Shown here in pieces: positions 3,862-14,087 of a stretch of 30,718 nt of DNA (its first letter is position 1; every line of letters starts with the position of its first letter). The notes beneath the pieces are model-generated. The model was not told the DNA's origin and did not search any database. It saw nothing but the letters and a program-made list of their open reading frames with translations. The stretch is from a virus. The position numbers and the translations under genes were made by a program. The stretch covers positions 1 to 30,718 of IMG/VR virus record IMGVR_UViG_3300021957_000185; one strand, written 5' to 3'.

Positions 3862-4042
3862 GATGTTCACCACTTCGCCTAATAGCTTCATCTAATAAAT
3901 CGTCTTTAGGTGGATAAGCATTAACGACAGCTCCACATTCTGCACAACTAAAACTAAGCTTTAAATCAAAACAATTATTGTATCGACTAATATTCTTTTC
4001 TCTGTCCAACTTCATATTGGCATTACAATTAAAACATTTCAT
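3854..4042 (-). CDS. Small zinc-ribbon protein (62 aa)
   Basis: Two Cys pairs, C3-x2-C6 at the N-terminus (MKCFNCNANM) and C33-x2-C36 (SFSCAECGAVV), form a likely zinc ribbon. A charged C-terminus with the DLLDEAIRRSGEHHG end follows. It starts 14 bases inside the end of the methyltransferase gene and overlaps the next gene by 8 bases, so it belongs to the same translation-coupled chain. A nucleic-acid or protein-binding role is plausible but not shown. Confidence 0.65.
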   Translation of the reverse strand: MKCFNCNANMKLDREKNISRYNNCFDLKLSFSCAECGAVVNAYPPKDDLLDEAIRRSGEHHG

Positions 4043-5138
4043 TTTTTACCTCCTTGTTAATTCTTTCTTTAGCTAAATCTATGTATTCTTGGTTCAACTC
4101 TAACAGGACTGCATTTCTATTATGTTGTGCTGCAACAATCCCTGTTGTCCCAGAACCACCGAATGGATCTAAAACTGTACCAGCTTTTGTTTCATTGGTT
4201 TGGCAATCACATTGTTTTTGCAAACCTAAATCTTCATAAATATTTTGCATTGAGCTTTGACCCTCATGCGGTGAACCTTCTGCTGTTGCTATAGTTTTTG
4301 ACCAACGCCTTTGAAATTCACCAGTTTTTTGCATTTGTCTTTTGTAAGGTGTCCCACACTCGCAACACATTTTTTCAGGACAACCAGCTAATACACATGG
4401 TTCTATTAAGTCTTTTGGAAAGGTGGCAAAATGTGCGCCTTTAAATGGTTTGGTTGTGACTGTCCATACAGATCTTTTGTTCTTTTTGGCAAGAGCTCCT
4501 ATCTTTGACAGACCACCTCTAGTATCCATACCAAACTCGCCTTTGCCTTTCTTAATACTTTTAGGTGAGTTAGGCCCTTGTGGATACTTAGCATCTTCTT
4601 TGATTGCCTCATGGTCGTAATAATATTTAACATTTTTACTTAATAAAAATATATATTCATGTGCCTTAGTGCATCTATCTCTTACACTCTCTGGCATTGG
4701 GTTAGGTTTGTGCCAAATAATATCCTGGCGTAAATACCAGCCGCCGTCTTGCTGTAAAGCTAATGCAACTCGCCAAGGTATGCCAATTAAATCTTTTGGC
4801 TTGATTCCTTTACTTGGCTTTGGTCTAGTAACTCCATACTCTTTATCACCACGCAACGATTGATTGGTTGTCGTTGTCCTTCCACCACTTGAATAACTAT
4901 CACCAAGATTAAGCCAAACAGTTCCGTCATCTCGCAACACTCGTTTTACTTCTCTAAATACATTAACCAAGTTCTCTACAAACTCTTCTGGTGTATCTTC
5001 CATGCCTAGCTGCTTGGATTCATCGTTGTAATTACGCAATCCCCAATAAGGCGGAGATGTAATGCAGGTGTTAATAGATTGATCTTCTAGTTTCTTTAAT
5101 GATTCAATGCAATCGCCTTGTAGTATTTCAATATTCAA
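4029..5138 (-). CDS. DNA methyltransferase, N4-cytosine or N6-adenine
   Basis: 369 residues. Transfers a methyl group from S-adenosylmethionine to an exocyclic amino group in DNA. Catalytic motif IV is TSPPYW (27-32) near the N-terminus and the AdoMet-binding motif I is DPFGGSG (324-330) near the C-terminus, the order of beta-class enzymes. SPPY is more common in N4-cytosine enzymes, but some N6-adenine enzymes also carry it. A Cys cluster (C258, C259, C261, with C310 and C312) suggests a zinc-ribbon insert between them. No partner nuclease is adjacent, so it is a solitary methylase, probably protecting phage DNA against host restriction. Target sequence unknown. Confidence 0.9.
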   Translation of the reverse strand: MNIEILQGDCIESLKKLEDQSINTCITSPPYWGLRNYNDESKQLGMEDTPEEFVENLVNVFREVKRVLRDDGTVWLNLGDSYSSGGRTTTTNQSLRGDKEYGVTRPKPSKGIKPKDLIGIPWRVALALQQDGGWYLRQDIIWHKPNPMPESVRDRCTKAHEYIFLLSKNVKYYYDHEAIKEDAKYPQGPNSPKSIKKGKGEFGMDTRGGLSKIGALAKKNKRSVWTVTTKPFKGAHFATFPKDLIEPCVLAGCPEKMCCECGTPYKRQMQKTGEFQRRWSKTIATAEGSPHEGQSSMQNIYEDLGLQKQCDCQTNETKAGTVLDPFGGSGTTGIVAAQHNRNAVLLELNQEYIDLAKERINKEVKNEMF

Positions 5139-5277
5139 TTCCTTTCCCCTTACTTATAATTTCAAAATGGTTGATCTCATTGTTCTCAACCGCCTCTTTA
5201 AACTTCTCCTTCAACTCATCTTGGCTAAGATTAATTGCATCTTCGATAAATATTACTGCTTTGACTGTATCGCTCAT
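5128..5277 (-). CDS. Hypothetical small protein between the methylases (49 aa)
   Basis: The start is placed at ATG 5277, which overlaps the stop of the upstream C5 methylase (ATGA); an earlier in-frame ATG at 5322 lies deep inside that gene and is disfavoured. The sequence is MSDTVKAVIFIEDAINLSQD followed by a charged helix and a short beta end (EIISKGKGIEY). It overlaps the next methylase by 11 bases. Not recognised. Confidence 0.6.
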   Translation of the reverse strand: MSDTVKAVIFIEDAINLSQDELKEKFKEAVENNEINHFEIISKGKGIEY

Positions 5278-6224
5278 GCTTCCATGTTCTTTAAGATGTG
5301 AGCAATAACTTCTATAGTCCAACCATTGCCAAGCATTTTATAACGCTGAGTGTTGCTCACATGGTTCGTGTAATTATCTGGAACAGTTTGCAATCTCTCG
5401 CACTCTAAGGGTGTGAGCTTTCTATACAAACATTTATCATAAACATTGGGGTGTATTTTGTTTGTCTCACAAACTGGCACCATTGTTCTTTGTTTGCGTT
5501 CAATAGAGTTCCAAGCTACAGCACTATTATATGAGTGTGTTAGTGCATAAGCCTTGCCTTGTTTATTTGCTGATTTGTTTTTTAATGTAACAGATGGAAT
5601 ATGACCACCACCTGCTGCGGTTCTGATTGTTACAGACTTGTCTGTATGCACTCTTGGTTTTTTTTCTCCAAAACCGCCATAAATATTTGATAGCATTGGT
5701 TCTTCAGCATCATCTTCTAATATGTCTTTTAAAAATATATTTCTGTCTTTGGGCTGCTCAACATTAGGAATGTTAGTCCAATAATATCTCTGTCTTGACT
5801 GAGCAGAAACCAAAGAGCTGTTAATAAAGATTGGCTCGACACCCATGTACTCAGAAATAATATCCAAGTATTCCTTTTTCATTCTTACATTTTCCAATAA
5901 AAAATATTTCGGCTGTAAGTATGAGATAGCTTTGTGAAACTCAAAGAACAATGCTGACCTAGGATCATCAAAGGCCAACTGTTTACCTGCAAAGCTAAAT
6001 CCTTGGCATGGACTACCACCCATCACCAAATCAATCTTCGGTAATGTTGATAAATCTAACTTGGTAATATCACCAACATGAATAATATCTGGGTAATTGG
6101 CTTGGCTTACTTGGATTGCATACTTATCAATCTCACTGGCGTAATAATTATCAACTTTGATGCCTAAACGATCTAAAGCAATCATTCCGCAACTCATTCC
6201 GTCAAACAAACTTAATACATTCAA
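5274..6224 (-). CDS. DNA cytosine-C5 methyltransferase, DNMT3-like
   Basis: 316 residues, a complete enzyme that methylates carbon 5 of cytosine using AdoMet. Motifs in order: I LFDGMSCG (6-13), IV GGSPCQGFS (69-77) with catalytic C73, VI ENV (111-113), VIII QSRQRYYW (142-149), X GNGW (299-302). The spacing and side motifs (LGIKVDNYYASE, ALFFEF, VSAQSRQRYYW) resemble the DNMT3 branch more than M.HhaI-like enzymes. The target-recognition region between VIII and X (about 155-275) is short. The start has an AAGGAGAAAGG ribosome site. A candidate promoter lies about 35 bases upstream. No cognate nuclease is seen; likely anti-restriction or regulatory methylation. Confidence 0.92.
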   Translation of the reverse strand: MNVLSLFDGMSCGMIALDRLGIKVDNYYASEIDKYAIQVSQANYPDIIHVGDITKLDLSTLPKIDLVMGGSPCQGFSFAGKQLAFDDPRSALFFEFHKAISYLQPKYFLLENVRMKKEYLDIISEYMGVEPIFINSSLVSAQSRQRYYWTNIPNVEQPKDRNIFLKDILEDDAEEPMLSNIYGGFGEKKPRVHTDKSVTIRTAAGGGHIPSVTLKNKSANKQGKAYALTHSYNSAVAWNSIERKQRTMVPVCETNKIHPNVYDKCLYRKLTPLECERLQTVPDNYTNHVSNTQRYKMLGNGWTIEVIAHILKNMEA

Positions 6225-11414: not shown

Positions 11415-11606
11415 TTAACTTGCGACTGGTTCGATAGTTGATTTAGTTTCTTCCTGTTCTATGACCTGAAGATCATAAAGAACCTTGCCACCCATTTTAG
11501 AATAGGTTGGGCCTTTGCCTTGCGCCCGATAATTTGCCAATGTTCTCGGAGACTTTCTCCATCTCTCTGCTAACTCTTCTTGTGTTAGCCAAACTTTATT
11601 ATTCAT
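11415..11606 (-). CDS. Excisionase-like HTH protein (HTH_17/AlpA type)
   Basis: 63 residues, MerR-like winged helix: WLTQEELAERWRKSPRTLAN as helix-turn-helix, then YRAQGKGPTYSKMGGKVLYD as wing. Members of this family act as excisionases (recombination directionality factors) or as transcription regulators. It is the first gene of the long minus-strand operon, and an integrase lies 0.5 kb away. A candidate promoter lies 30-59 bases upstream. Whether it is Xis or a regulator of the early operon cannot be told from sequence. Confidence 0.7.
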   Translation of the reverse strand: MNNKVWLTQEELAERWRKSPRTLANYRAQGKGPTYSKMGGKVLYDLQVIEQEETKSTIEPVAS

Positions 11607-12132: not shown

Positions 12133-13167
12133 TTACCCATTCATAATAATCTTCTGAATATGGTCGCCAATCTTCTGTGCGTTCTCAACTGACACCTTTT
12201 CATGGATATGTGCATAGCGTTGAGTCGCTGCAATATCTCTATGGCCCAACAAGTTACCGACCATACTTAGGTTCATATCCAAACCAATACCAAAAGATGC
12301 GTAGCTATGTCGAAGATCATGCAATCTTAAATCTGGTGCATTGATTTGTTTTCTAATTCCATCCCAAAATTTTCTAGGACTACCGATCCCAACTATCGTG
12401 CCACTTGTTCTTGGCAAAGCATTAATAATGTTCATGGCTTGTTTAGATAAATAAATAACTCTGTCATCTCCATAACGCATTGTCTTGTGGTTTTTTAATG
12501 TAAGTTTATTGTCTTGCAAGTCTGACCATTTAGCACCAGCCACCTCACCACACCTTGCACCTGTTAATATCAACAACCAAATAAATGCAACTGAGTTAGC
12601 TAGTTCTGGTATCTGCGATTTAGAGTTTAATATTCTTACAACACTATTCAGTTCTTCTTCGGTTAGATAGCGTTTACGTTTAGCCTCTGGGTTCTTTTCT
12701 ATTCCGTCTATTGGGTGGTCTTTAATCTTGGCATGACGATAAGTTGCTTTTAATACTTCCAGGCATTTGTTAGCTGCTATTGGCGCACGTTGAGTTACCT
12801 TGTCATGTAGTGTTTGTATCTCGCTGTCAGAAATCTCATCTAAATGTTTATGACCAAATTGTTTCTTAATATCCTTTTCATAAATGGAGATATATTGCTT
12901 TGCACTATTTGATCCTTTGTTGGTAAGTTTTTGCACATAGTTAGCAAACGCCTCATCTAGTGTTAGCTTGTTCTTCTTATCCATTGGATCAATGCCAGTA
13001 GCCACTAGGCCCAAGTTCTTTTGTGCTAGGTTTCTTGCTACCTTGATGGGTAAGTCCAGAGATCCTAACTTCATACTTCTACGCTTACCATTAATTCTGT
13101 AGTAAACGTAATAACCAGTTGGATATATTTTAAGTGCTTGTATCTGTGTGTCGTTCTTGTATTTCAT
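12133..13167 (-). CDS. int: Tyrosine-family phage integrase
   Basis: 344 residues from ATG 13167, chosen for its GAGGAG site 7 bases upstream; an ATG at 13215 lacks one. Catalyses site-specific recombination between attP and the host tRNA gene. An N-terminal arm-binding domain (about 1-60: YYVYYRINGKRRSMKLGSL), a core-binding SAM-like domain (about 67-150) and a catalytic domain are visible, with R205 (TGARCGE), K228, H283 and R286 (LHDLRHS), H309 (GHRD) and nucleophile Y318 (QRYAHI). All catalytic residues are present. It overlaps the upstream DUF1289 gene by 38 bases, and attP lies about 385 bases upstream of its start. Confidence 0.95.
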   Translation of the reverse strand: MKYKNDTQIQALKIYPTGYYVYYRINGKRRSMKLGSLDLPIKVARNLAQKNLGLVATGIDPMDKKNKLTLDEAFANYVQKLTNKGSNSAKQYISIYEKDIKKQFGHKHLDEISDSEIQTLHDKVTQRAPIAANKCLEVLKATYRHAKIKDHPIDGIEKNPEAKRKRYLTEEELNSVVRILNSKSQIPELANSVAFIWLLILTGARCGEVAGAKWSDLQDNKLTLKNHKTMRYGDDRVIYLSKQAMNIINALPRTSGTIVGIGSPRKFWDGIRKQINAPDLRLHDLRHSYASFGIGLDMNLSMVGNLLGHRDIAATQRYAHIHEKVSVENAQKIGDHIQKIIMNG

Positions 13168-13417
13168 CTTTGCTCCTCGTTTGTAGATGTCTAATGTCGT
13201 AATGTTCTGAAGCATTACGCAAGTTAATTATTTTTTTCTCTGTGTCAGAGAAAGTTCCCCAATCCCTTATTTCGGTTTGTGTTCTTCCACACCCCTTACA
13301 TCGATCATCACCGAACTGTGTGGTTGAACAAATGCCAATACAAGGACTGTCTGCAACGCTCACACATCTCCCTAAAGTTTTAGATAGATCTGTAAATGTT
13401 CCAGTTTCAGTTTTCAT
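13130..13417 (-). CDS. DUF1289 family zinc-type protein, co-transcribed with integrase
   Basis: 95 residues. Four cysteines in the DUF1289 pattern: SPCIGIC (C26, C30) and CKGCGRT (C40, C43), followed by EIRDWGTFSDTEKK, a typical family signature. DUF1289 proteins are small presumed metal-binding proteins of proteobacteria with no established function. The C-terminal third (HYDIRHLQTRSKDEIQERHT) is charged and overlaps the integrase start. Two palindromes and a promoter precede it, so it heads the integration operon. It could have been taken from a host; a regulatory role is guesswork. Confidence 0.8.
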   Translation of the reverse strand: MKTETGTFTDLSKTLGRCVSVADSPCIGICSTTQFGDDRCKGCGRTQTEIRDWGTFSDTEKKIINLRNASEHYDIRHLQTRSKDEIQERHTDTST

Positions 13418-13435
13418 TTGTCATACATTTGACAA
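13418..13435. promoter_or_regulatory. Palindrome directly before the DUF1289 start codon
   Basis: Perfect dyad TTGTCA-tacatt-TGACAA ending at the base before the ATG (13417). It sits where a ribosome site would be expected, so a bound protein or an RNA hairpin here could block expression of the DUF1289-integrase operon. Part of the arm (TGTCATAC) recurs in the promoter spacer upstream. Confidence 0.5.
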
Positions 13436-13551: not shown

Positions 13552-13590
13552 GGTGTAAACGAGATGCTCTACCAACTGAGCTAAACACCC
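13552..13590 (-). other. attP: Phage attachment site (attP): 5' half of tRNA-Val(UAC)
   Basis: On the minus strand 39 bases match the 5' half of a tRNA gene. They are acceptor strand GGGTGTT, TA, D stem GCTC, D loop AGTTGGTA, GAGC, A, anticodon stem TCTCG, loop TTTACAC with anticodon TAC, plus one more matching C. The match then stops; no 3' half is present and the anticodon stem cannot close. A tRNA fragment 385 bases from an integrase gene, inside phage sequence, is the expected signature of attP. Carrying the 5' rather than the 3' half is unusual: after integration the phage-borne half would complete the host tRNA from its 5' side. Confidence 0.85.
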
Positions 13591-13613
13591 AAACGGCTGT
13601 TTTAAGCCAAAAA

Positions 13614-14087
13614 CTAGCCTATTGCAACCAATGAATTTTCGTCAAATAGATCCACATTTGTCATATGTCTGTCAGTATTAATCCATGCAATGCTATCCAT
13701 GGCCCCCTGCAAACTATCTAACGAATTAAGATTTTTCATAATTTCATCTGATATACAAATTGATTGTTTTTTGCAATTATTAAAAGGTAAGAAGTAAATA
13801 GTATTATATGGAACAGAGATAAGCGCAAAAACATCCAACGTGTTTTCTTGGTATTTTCTATTTTTGGTGTTAGCTCCTCTGCGTAAATCAAACCGCCAAG
13901 ACACTCCACCTTTCTCAATGTTGTTTCTTGTTTTGACTTGGCACTTAATTAAATGGTTGTTCCACTCAAAGATGACATCGGCTTCGGCTGCGTGAGGTAA
14001 GACTGTAACTGTATCGGAGACTTTAGCTAGAACTGAAGCGGTCAAGAACTCGCCACTACGACCAACCCTTTCCGTTTTTCTGGACAT
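13614..14087 (-). CDS. PD-(D/E)XK endonuclease-like protein (PDDEXK_5/group I intron type)
   Basis: 157 residues. The nuclease core near the N-terminus reads GRSGEFLTASVL (E13), EADVIFEW (D37) and IKCQVKTRN (Q50, K52), a QxK variant of the PD-(D/E)XK site known from group I intron-associated endonucleases. The C-terminal part (INTDRHMTNVDLF) is not recognised. It is the last gene before attP, on the late strand, 6 bases after the 670-residue ejection-type gene. As a gene at the attP edge it may be a late-acquired extra (moron), a homing-type nuclease or a DNA-defence gene. No intron is seen. Confidence 0.65.
   Translation of the reverse strand: MSRKTERVGRSGEFLTASVLAKVSDTVTVLPHAAEADVIFEWNNHLIKCQVKTRNNIEKGGVSWRFDLRRGANTKNRKYQENTLDVFALISVPYNTIYFLPFNNCKKQSICISDEIMKNLNSLDSLQGAMDSIAWINTDRHMTNVDLFDENSLVAIG

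Follow-up and report, generated by a model that had tools for sequence, protein, structure and literature searches.

The stretch of DNA analyzed here, hereafter the window, is the linear virus record IMGVR_UViG_3300021957_000185 of IMG/VR (30,718 bases; part of the genome may be missing), which carries on its minus strand, at positions 13552-13590, the 5' half (positions 1-39) of the valine tRNA gene with anticodon UAC, or tRNA-Val(UAC), of SAR11 bacteria (Pelagibacterales). Our analysis indicates, with a probability that we put at roughly 80%, that this half is the core of a phage attachment site (attP) through which a tyrosine integrase would target the single-copy tRNA-Val(UAC) gene of SAR11, and that transcription of the tRNA rebuilt by integration would come from phage DNA, the likeliest source being a conserved promoter-like cassette in front of the half. 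The fragment would serve both as the common core and as the tRNA-restoring sequence of attP.

A 5' tRNA Half between Paired Arm-Type Repeats

Read from 13590 to 13552, the fragment GGGTGTTTAGCTCAGTTGGTAGAGCATCTCGTTTACACC is identical over 39/39 bases to the start of the SAR11 gene and ends with the 7-nt anticodon loop (positions 32-38, window 13559-13553) plus base 39, which opens the 3' stem; past it the phage reads AATATAAATAC and the host GAGAGGG. Before tRNA base 1, where identity sets in, only an 11-nt run (AACAGCCGTTT), shifted by 6 nt, resembles the host leader. The chance expectation of an exact 39-mer in the window is about 2e-19. In the GTDB species collection, 81 contigs contain this 39-mer, and in each of them it opens a complete tRNA-Val gene; 12 IMG/VR contigs contain it too, there invariably cut short and bordered by phage sequence. 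In the window itself ARAGORN finds no complete tRNA, and an Rfam scan at gathering thresholds gives no match. The identity to complete SAR11 genes bears out the original prediction, made from the letters of the window, that 39 bases of tRNA-Val run from base 1 to the end of the anticodon loop before the sequences diverge.

On either side of the fragment, and on the same strand, stands a copy of TATGACAAATG, at 13655-13665 to the left and at 13415-13425 to the right, that is at -106 bp and +134 bp from the anticodon loop. These direct repeats are predicted from sequence to be paired arm-type integrase sites, so that the core lies between them. Among related viral contigs, labelled here with L and a number, the repeat is altered in both arms together, reading ATGACAAC in L141, GGGAC[CG] in L194 and GGTACG in L199, while in L196 and L197 each arm has TGGCGGAT twice, at a spacing of 11 bp. 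Because paired repeats that covary across relatives are expected for the arm sites of an integrase, the fragment appears to form the core of an attP of a functional type.

The same left arm with its cassette, followed by the tRNA-Val 5' half, is found in 16 viral contigs, with two variants of the half (two changes in L112, one in L118 and L140). The most distant of these tRNA-Val relatives, represented by L141 and L130, has an integrase that is 73% identical to that of the window; in L141 the half is 100% identical to that of the window (38 nt) and the preceding 43 nt are 86% identical, against 22-35% for the flanks on either side in ungapped comparison. A functionless relic, left by imprecise excision or by capture of host DNA, would fit with the fact that no lysogen of the window family has been seen, and yet we consider it very improbable, given that the half is 97-100% conserved between phages with flanks ~30% identical, that the same structural end points recur in two different tRNAs (see below) and that paired arm-type sites lie on either side.

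Other phages with related integrases carry the opposite half. L095, L198 and L199 also draw on this tRNA-Val gene but have its 3' half, the integrase of L095 being 45.5% identical to that of the window over 358 amino acids (aa). The 5' halves end at position 38 (L141) or 39 (window) and the 3' half of L095 starts at 31/32, so that the two versions have nothing in common but the anticodon loop of 7 nt and one or two bases next to it. The loop sequence TTTACAC (13553-13559, minus strand), which is the sole sequence common to 5' and 3' halves, is the probable 7-bp crossover or overlap region; because the two kinds of phages overlap there only, we infer from these identity boundaries that strand exchange takes place within the anticodon loop. 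This is also where tyrosine integrases targeting the anticodon site exchange strands (PMC8371274).

Predicted Outcome of Integration in the SAR11 tRNA-Val Locus

ARAGORN found tRNA-Val in all host loci tested (80/80), with tRNA-Asp at most 200 nt behind it in 78 and 3 nt behind it in 74, and both a 38-mer of tRNA-Val and a tRNA-Asp pattern gave at most one match per genome in the genomes searched. A terminator-type hairpin lies directly before base 1 of tRNA-Val in 78/79 host loci, and upstream lies the 3' end of a gene whose translation appears similar to the DNA-binding protein HU.

After crossover in the anticodon loop of host tRNA-Val(UAC), the host 5' half, now dead, and the host upstream region would be joined to the integrase side, and the other prophage end would bear an intact tRNA composed of the phage 5' half and the host 3' half, followed by tRNA-Asp. 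The rebuilt-tRNA junction is predicted as GGCTTAAAACAGCC..T.GGGTGTTTAGC...GTTTACACCGAGAGGG and the dead-half junction as the host hairpin followed by GGGTGTTTAGC...GTTTACACCAATATAAATAC. When the sequences were joined in silico, ARAGORN recovered tRNA-Val and tRNA-Asp in the reconstructed prophage junction attR and none in the other junction (attL) or in attP, a result that holds for three other attPs tested; intact tRNA-Val arises solely at the junction on the side of the phage late operon.

Since tRNA-Val stands ahead of tRNA-Asp, integration would cut both tRNAs off from the host upstream region with its promoter, and tRNA-Asp, 3 nt downstream, would be affected as well; both would then be transcribed from phage DNA. 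As the target is single-copy and is followed by tRNA-Asp, a lysogen would have to obtain both tRNAs, which are presumably essential in SAR11, by transcription from the phage side.

In an alternative known as tRNA-dependent lysogeny, which has a precedent in mycobacteriophages (PMC10865867), integration destroys the host tRNA and the phage brings a complete tRNA gene to take its place. We give it next to no credence for the window: this linear record, perhaps short of part of the genome, has no complete tRNA and a core of 39 bp instead of ~10 bp, and its reconstructed junction is an intact tRNA.

A Conserved Promoter-Like Cassette before the Half

The rebuilt tRNA would most likely be transcribed from the cassette at 13591-13633 (minus strand). 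The window sequence directly before the half is GGTTGCAATAGGCTAGTTTTTGGCTTAAAACAGCCGTTT, inside which the hexamers TTGCAA (13622-13627) and TAAAAC (13599-13604) are separated by a 17-nt spacer, an arrangement resembling a sigma-70 promoter. A cassette of this kind (~43 bp) lies directly before the tRNA half in all 5'-half phages, its hexamers reading TTGATT-17-TAAAAC in L141 and TGGTTT-17-TAAAAC in L197. When all of IMG/VR was searched, its core was found in 11 contigs, each time directly before a 5' tRNA half and nowhere else, and a search of 162 SAR11-order genomes gave nothing beyond two matches with 2 mismatches. In five contigs (L006, L010, L118, L140 and L141) the preceding nuclease gene stops ~70 nt earlier and the cassette is retained, which argues that it is not conserved as coding sequence. 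We favor a promoter that would replace the one of the host.

Late genes are normally silent in lysogens. This bears on the proposal of the original prediction that the rebuilt tRNA would be transcribed by read-through from the late operon, the stretch before the half being merely a hairpin or a spacer. The late operon and the nuclease gene are indeed oriented correctly and end 23 nt before the half, as had been noted (the stop codon of the nuclease open reading frame, ORF, is at 13614-13616), and in the window a hairpin of -12 kcal/mol is predicted for the stretch. Such read-through is possible but unlikely: with silent late genes a lysogen would starve of an essential tRNA, the stretch is kept as non-coding DNA in the five contigs with an earlier nuclease stop, and in other members the hairpin is weak (z -0.66 to -1.66); no terminator is called. 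Supply of tRNA-Val from the phage side, the other part of that proposal, agrees with the in-silico junction, for which the conserved cassette between operon and half offers a better candidate source than the late operon. A terminator function of the cassette was rejected, its folding being weak and inconsistent and no terminator being called.

The left arms of attP sites commonly contain binding sites for integrase, excisionase or host architectural proteins, and the cassette might be one of these rather than a promoter. Its 17-nt spacer is conserved as well as the hexamers and there are two GGCT(T) repeats inside, as a binding site would have it; on the other hand, L095, L214 and L194, which have related integrases and 3' halves, have no such left-arm stretch despite the same organization of arm sites. 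A binding site thus seems doubtful to us, if a serious contender, and a promoter the better reading of the cassette.

Host promoters offer some comparison. Most host tRNA-Val genes have TTGC and then TAACAG 16-17 nt on, and the tRNA-Pro genes of SAR11 have conserved TTGTTT and TATAA[C/G] at a distance similar to that of the cassette hexamers. The cassette may have come from the promoter of tRNA-Pro in SAR11, with which the L197 sequence aligns in register, yet just at the ~1% level of random SAR11 60-mers. As a separate observation, the host loci have a strong terminator hairpin at tRNA-Val base 1 with TTGC(A/G)C on its upstream edge (e.g., L022:3453-3490), and terminator and tRNA-Val promoter may be superimposed there.

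Switching of the tRNA Half within One Integrase Family

The association of cassette and 5' half extends to a second tRNA. Profile searches found more distant members of the integrase family, and two phages with a related integrase, L196 and L197, have a 5' half, that of tRNA-Pro(UGG), which again ends at the anticodon loop with the cassette in front and is identical to a real SAR11 variant present in genome G011; their gene order is nuclease, attP, a gene for a DUF1289 protein, integrase. The 3' half of tRNA-Pro is found in L214 and L215, and L194 has a 3' half as well, from a tRNA that by eye looks like Met(CAT). The claim of the original prediction that attP holds a 5' half is thus sustained by the integrase and excisionase genes, by the arm-type sites on both sides, by the 16 viral contigs and by this second tRNA.

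All these phages, whichever half they carry, have their integrase placed 3' of the core and oriented like the tRNA. Their integration polarity is therefore the same; what differs is the end at which the tRNA is rebuilt. Homologues of the nuclease occupy the same position beside attP in 5'- and 3'-half phages. Right arm sites lie at similar distances from the loop (+112 to +158 in 5'-half phages, +142/+153 in 3'-half phages), and left arm sites at -103 to -114 in 5'-half phages versus -64 to -75 in 3'-half phages.

Phylogenetic trees of integrase and nuclease clearly disagree. In the integrase tree the topology is (3'Val,(5'Pro,3'Pro)), with supports of 100/99 and 95/89, and this group stands apart from the window clade; in the nuclease tree all 5'-half phages cluster together with moderate support (81/89), Val and Pro types being mixed. 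The 5'-half trait thus appears to track the left arm, namely nuclease and cassette, and not the integrase tree, which implies that the half carried has switched within the integrase family and points to exchange between phages at attP. We see an even chance that the promoter-like cassette and the 5' tRNA half form a portable left-arm module that has moved between phages of different integrases and targets and puts the single-copy Val-Asp pair of SAR11 under prophage transcription, the half carried being an evolvable trait apart from integrase specificity.

Further integrases of the same family, 45-48% identical, are present in L201-L210. The two that were read (L201 and L207) have 282-290 aa and overlap or abut the nuclease gene, and no tRNA fragment was found beside them; integrases of this type may have no domain for arm binding and may recombine at a different type of site. 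Chromosomal loci L244-L246 were rejected as relatives, having nothing but the integrase domain in common with the window.

Integrated Forms and Points against the Proposal

The original prediction could be checked by finding an identical host tRNA-Val gene and by mapping attL and attR; the former is present in the 81 contigs mentioned above, and for the latter no junction of the window family was found in the collections searched. A junction search of IMG/VR with the host 3' half gave no attR of this family and brought up L095 instead, and candidate integrated relatives sought by their integrase in the SAR11 family and order were rejected, since their matches had ~30% identity or less and lay outside this family.

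A real SAR11 chromosome does have the integrated layout predicted for a 5'-half element. Genome G007 (contig CACKNC010000001.1, our locus L042) contains a decayed 2.06-kb element in tRNA-Asp, with a 41-nt 5' fragment of tRNA-Asp (228-268) beside tRNA-Val, an intact tRNA-Asp at the far end (2291-2367) and a C-terminal integrase remnant at 2003-2185; the two tRNA-Asp copies have no identity upstream of base 1. It is an unrelated element with a different integrase.

We infer actual integration of the phage, the exact crossover and the promoter activity of the cassette, and several results weigh against these. No integrated family member was found in the 162 SAR11-order genomes, whose completeness is not stated, and no junction of the window family in the IMG/VR or GTDB contigs searched. 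For the half variants of L112 and of L118/L140, the same 162 genomes offer no exact host counterpart; that of L112 has none among 385 genomes of the class either, the nearest being one mismatch off. A stricter promoter scan does not report the cassette, the -10-like hexamer TAAAAC is without the usual final T, and the -35-like hexamer has decayed to ATGTAA in one subgroup (L120).

Gene Context and Probable Host

The window appears to derive from a temperate-type phage with an internal attP, because it contains genes for integrase, an excisionase-like protein, recombination, the small subunit of terminase, scaffold and major head protein. The tyrosine integrase (12133-13215, minus strand) matches PF00589 (E 4e-14), Arm-DNA-bind_3 and the integrase family phrog_1 (E 6e-55). 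Its catalytic domain has the R, H-x-x-R, H/W and Y residues of tyrosine recombinases, R221, H299, R302, H325 and Y334 being invariant among three aligned relatives; the start codon probably lies inside this ORF, relatives having a 344-aa form. On the same strand are an excisionase-like helix-turn-helix protein at 11415-11606 (HTH_17; excisionase phrog_7735, E 1e-7), the DUF1289 protein gene between attP and integrase at 13130-13417 (PF06945, E 1e-13) and, as the last gene before attP and oriented towards the tRNA half, a PD-(D/E)XK nuclease-like gene at 13614-14087 (PF11645). The DUF1289 gene is shared by the window family and is also present in the L196 locus, and L130 has no such gene between attP and integrase; further small ORFs start there in L118, L119 and L009. 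Elsewhere in the window (4029-6224), two neighbouring ORFs match the DNA methyltransferase families phrog_67 and phrog_116.

A SAR11 host is likely for this marine phage, because the contigs with the 39-mer that were followed up all belong to one order that includes genomes titled Pelagibacteraceae. By its capsid, the closest SAR11 phage isolate is HTVC106P (42%), which has no annotated integrase.

Comparison with Known Systems and Significance

The original prediction had called a 5' half unusual among tRNA-targeting integrases, and the Islander survey agrees, with 3760 islands having a 3' tDNA fragment versus 159 with a 5' fragment (159/3919; PMC4383910). As in the Islander 5'-fragment islands, the window has a tyrosine integrase, its attP supplies the 5' and not the 3' part of the tRNA (positions 1-39), and the displaced 5' fragment would stay (PMC4383910); the window differs in that its half is tied to a conserved promoter-like cassette and that sister phages hold the opposite half of that tRNA gene. 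Archaeal integrases of the pTN3 type likewise use an attB site corresponding to the 5' tRNA half up to the anticodon and part the rebuilt tRNA from its own promoter (PMC8371274, PMC5495485). The pTN3 integrase gene contains attP and is split when integration occurs, whereas the core of the window lies >330 bp upstream of the integrase ORF, which would remain intact. Pelagiphages of the HTVC019P type and uv-Fonsiphage-EPL are also SAR11 phages integrating into a host tRNA, namely tRNA-Leu, but represent another phage group and are described with a replacement tRNA-Leu of their own (PMC6811365). Lysogen survival would hang on phage-side expression of an essential tRNA, as in the tRNA-dependent lysogeny of mycobacteriophages, in which a whole phage tRNA replaces the destroyed host gene, whereas here a hybrid gene would be rebuilt (PMC10865867).

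Elements supplying the 5' part of a tRNA are thus rare but already described. What sets the present variant apart is that the half comes with a conserved cassette and that one integrase family has switched between halves; we found neither described in the searchable literature (most subscription papers lie outside such a search). Elements that target tRNA genes nearly always bring the 3' half, so that the host promoter keeps charge of the tRNA. The present integrase family offers matched pairs with the same tRNA gene, crossover loop and integrase orientation but opposite halves, for two tRNAs, and so permits a direct test of what is required for carrying a 5' half; the confinement of the cassette to 5' types suggests that the requirement is a promoter. 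Few bacterial groups in the ocean are as abundant as SAR11, and if our reading is true, a prophage would control an essential tRNA operon in these bacteria.
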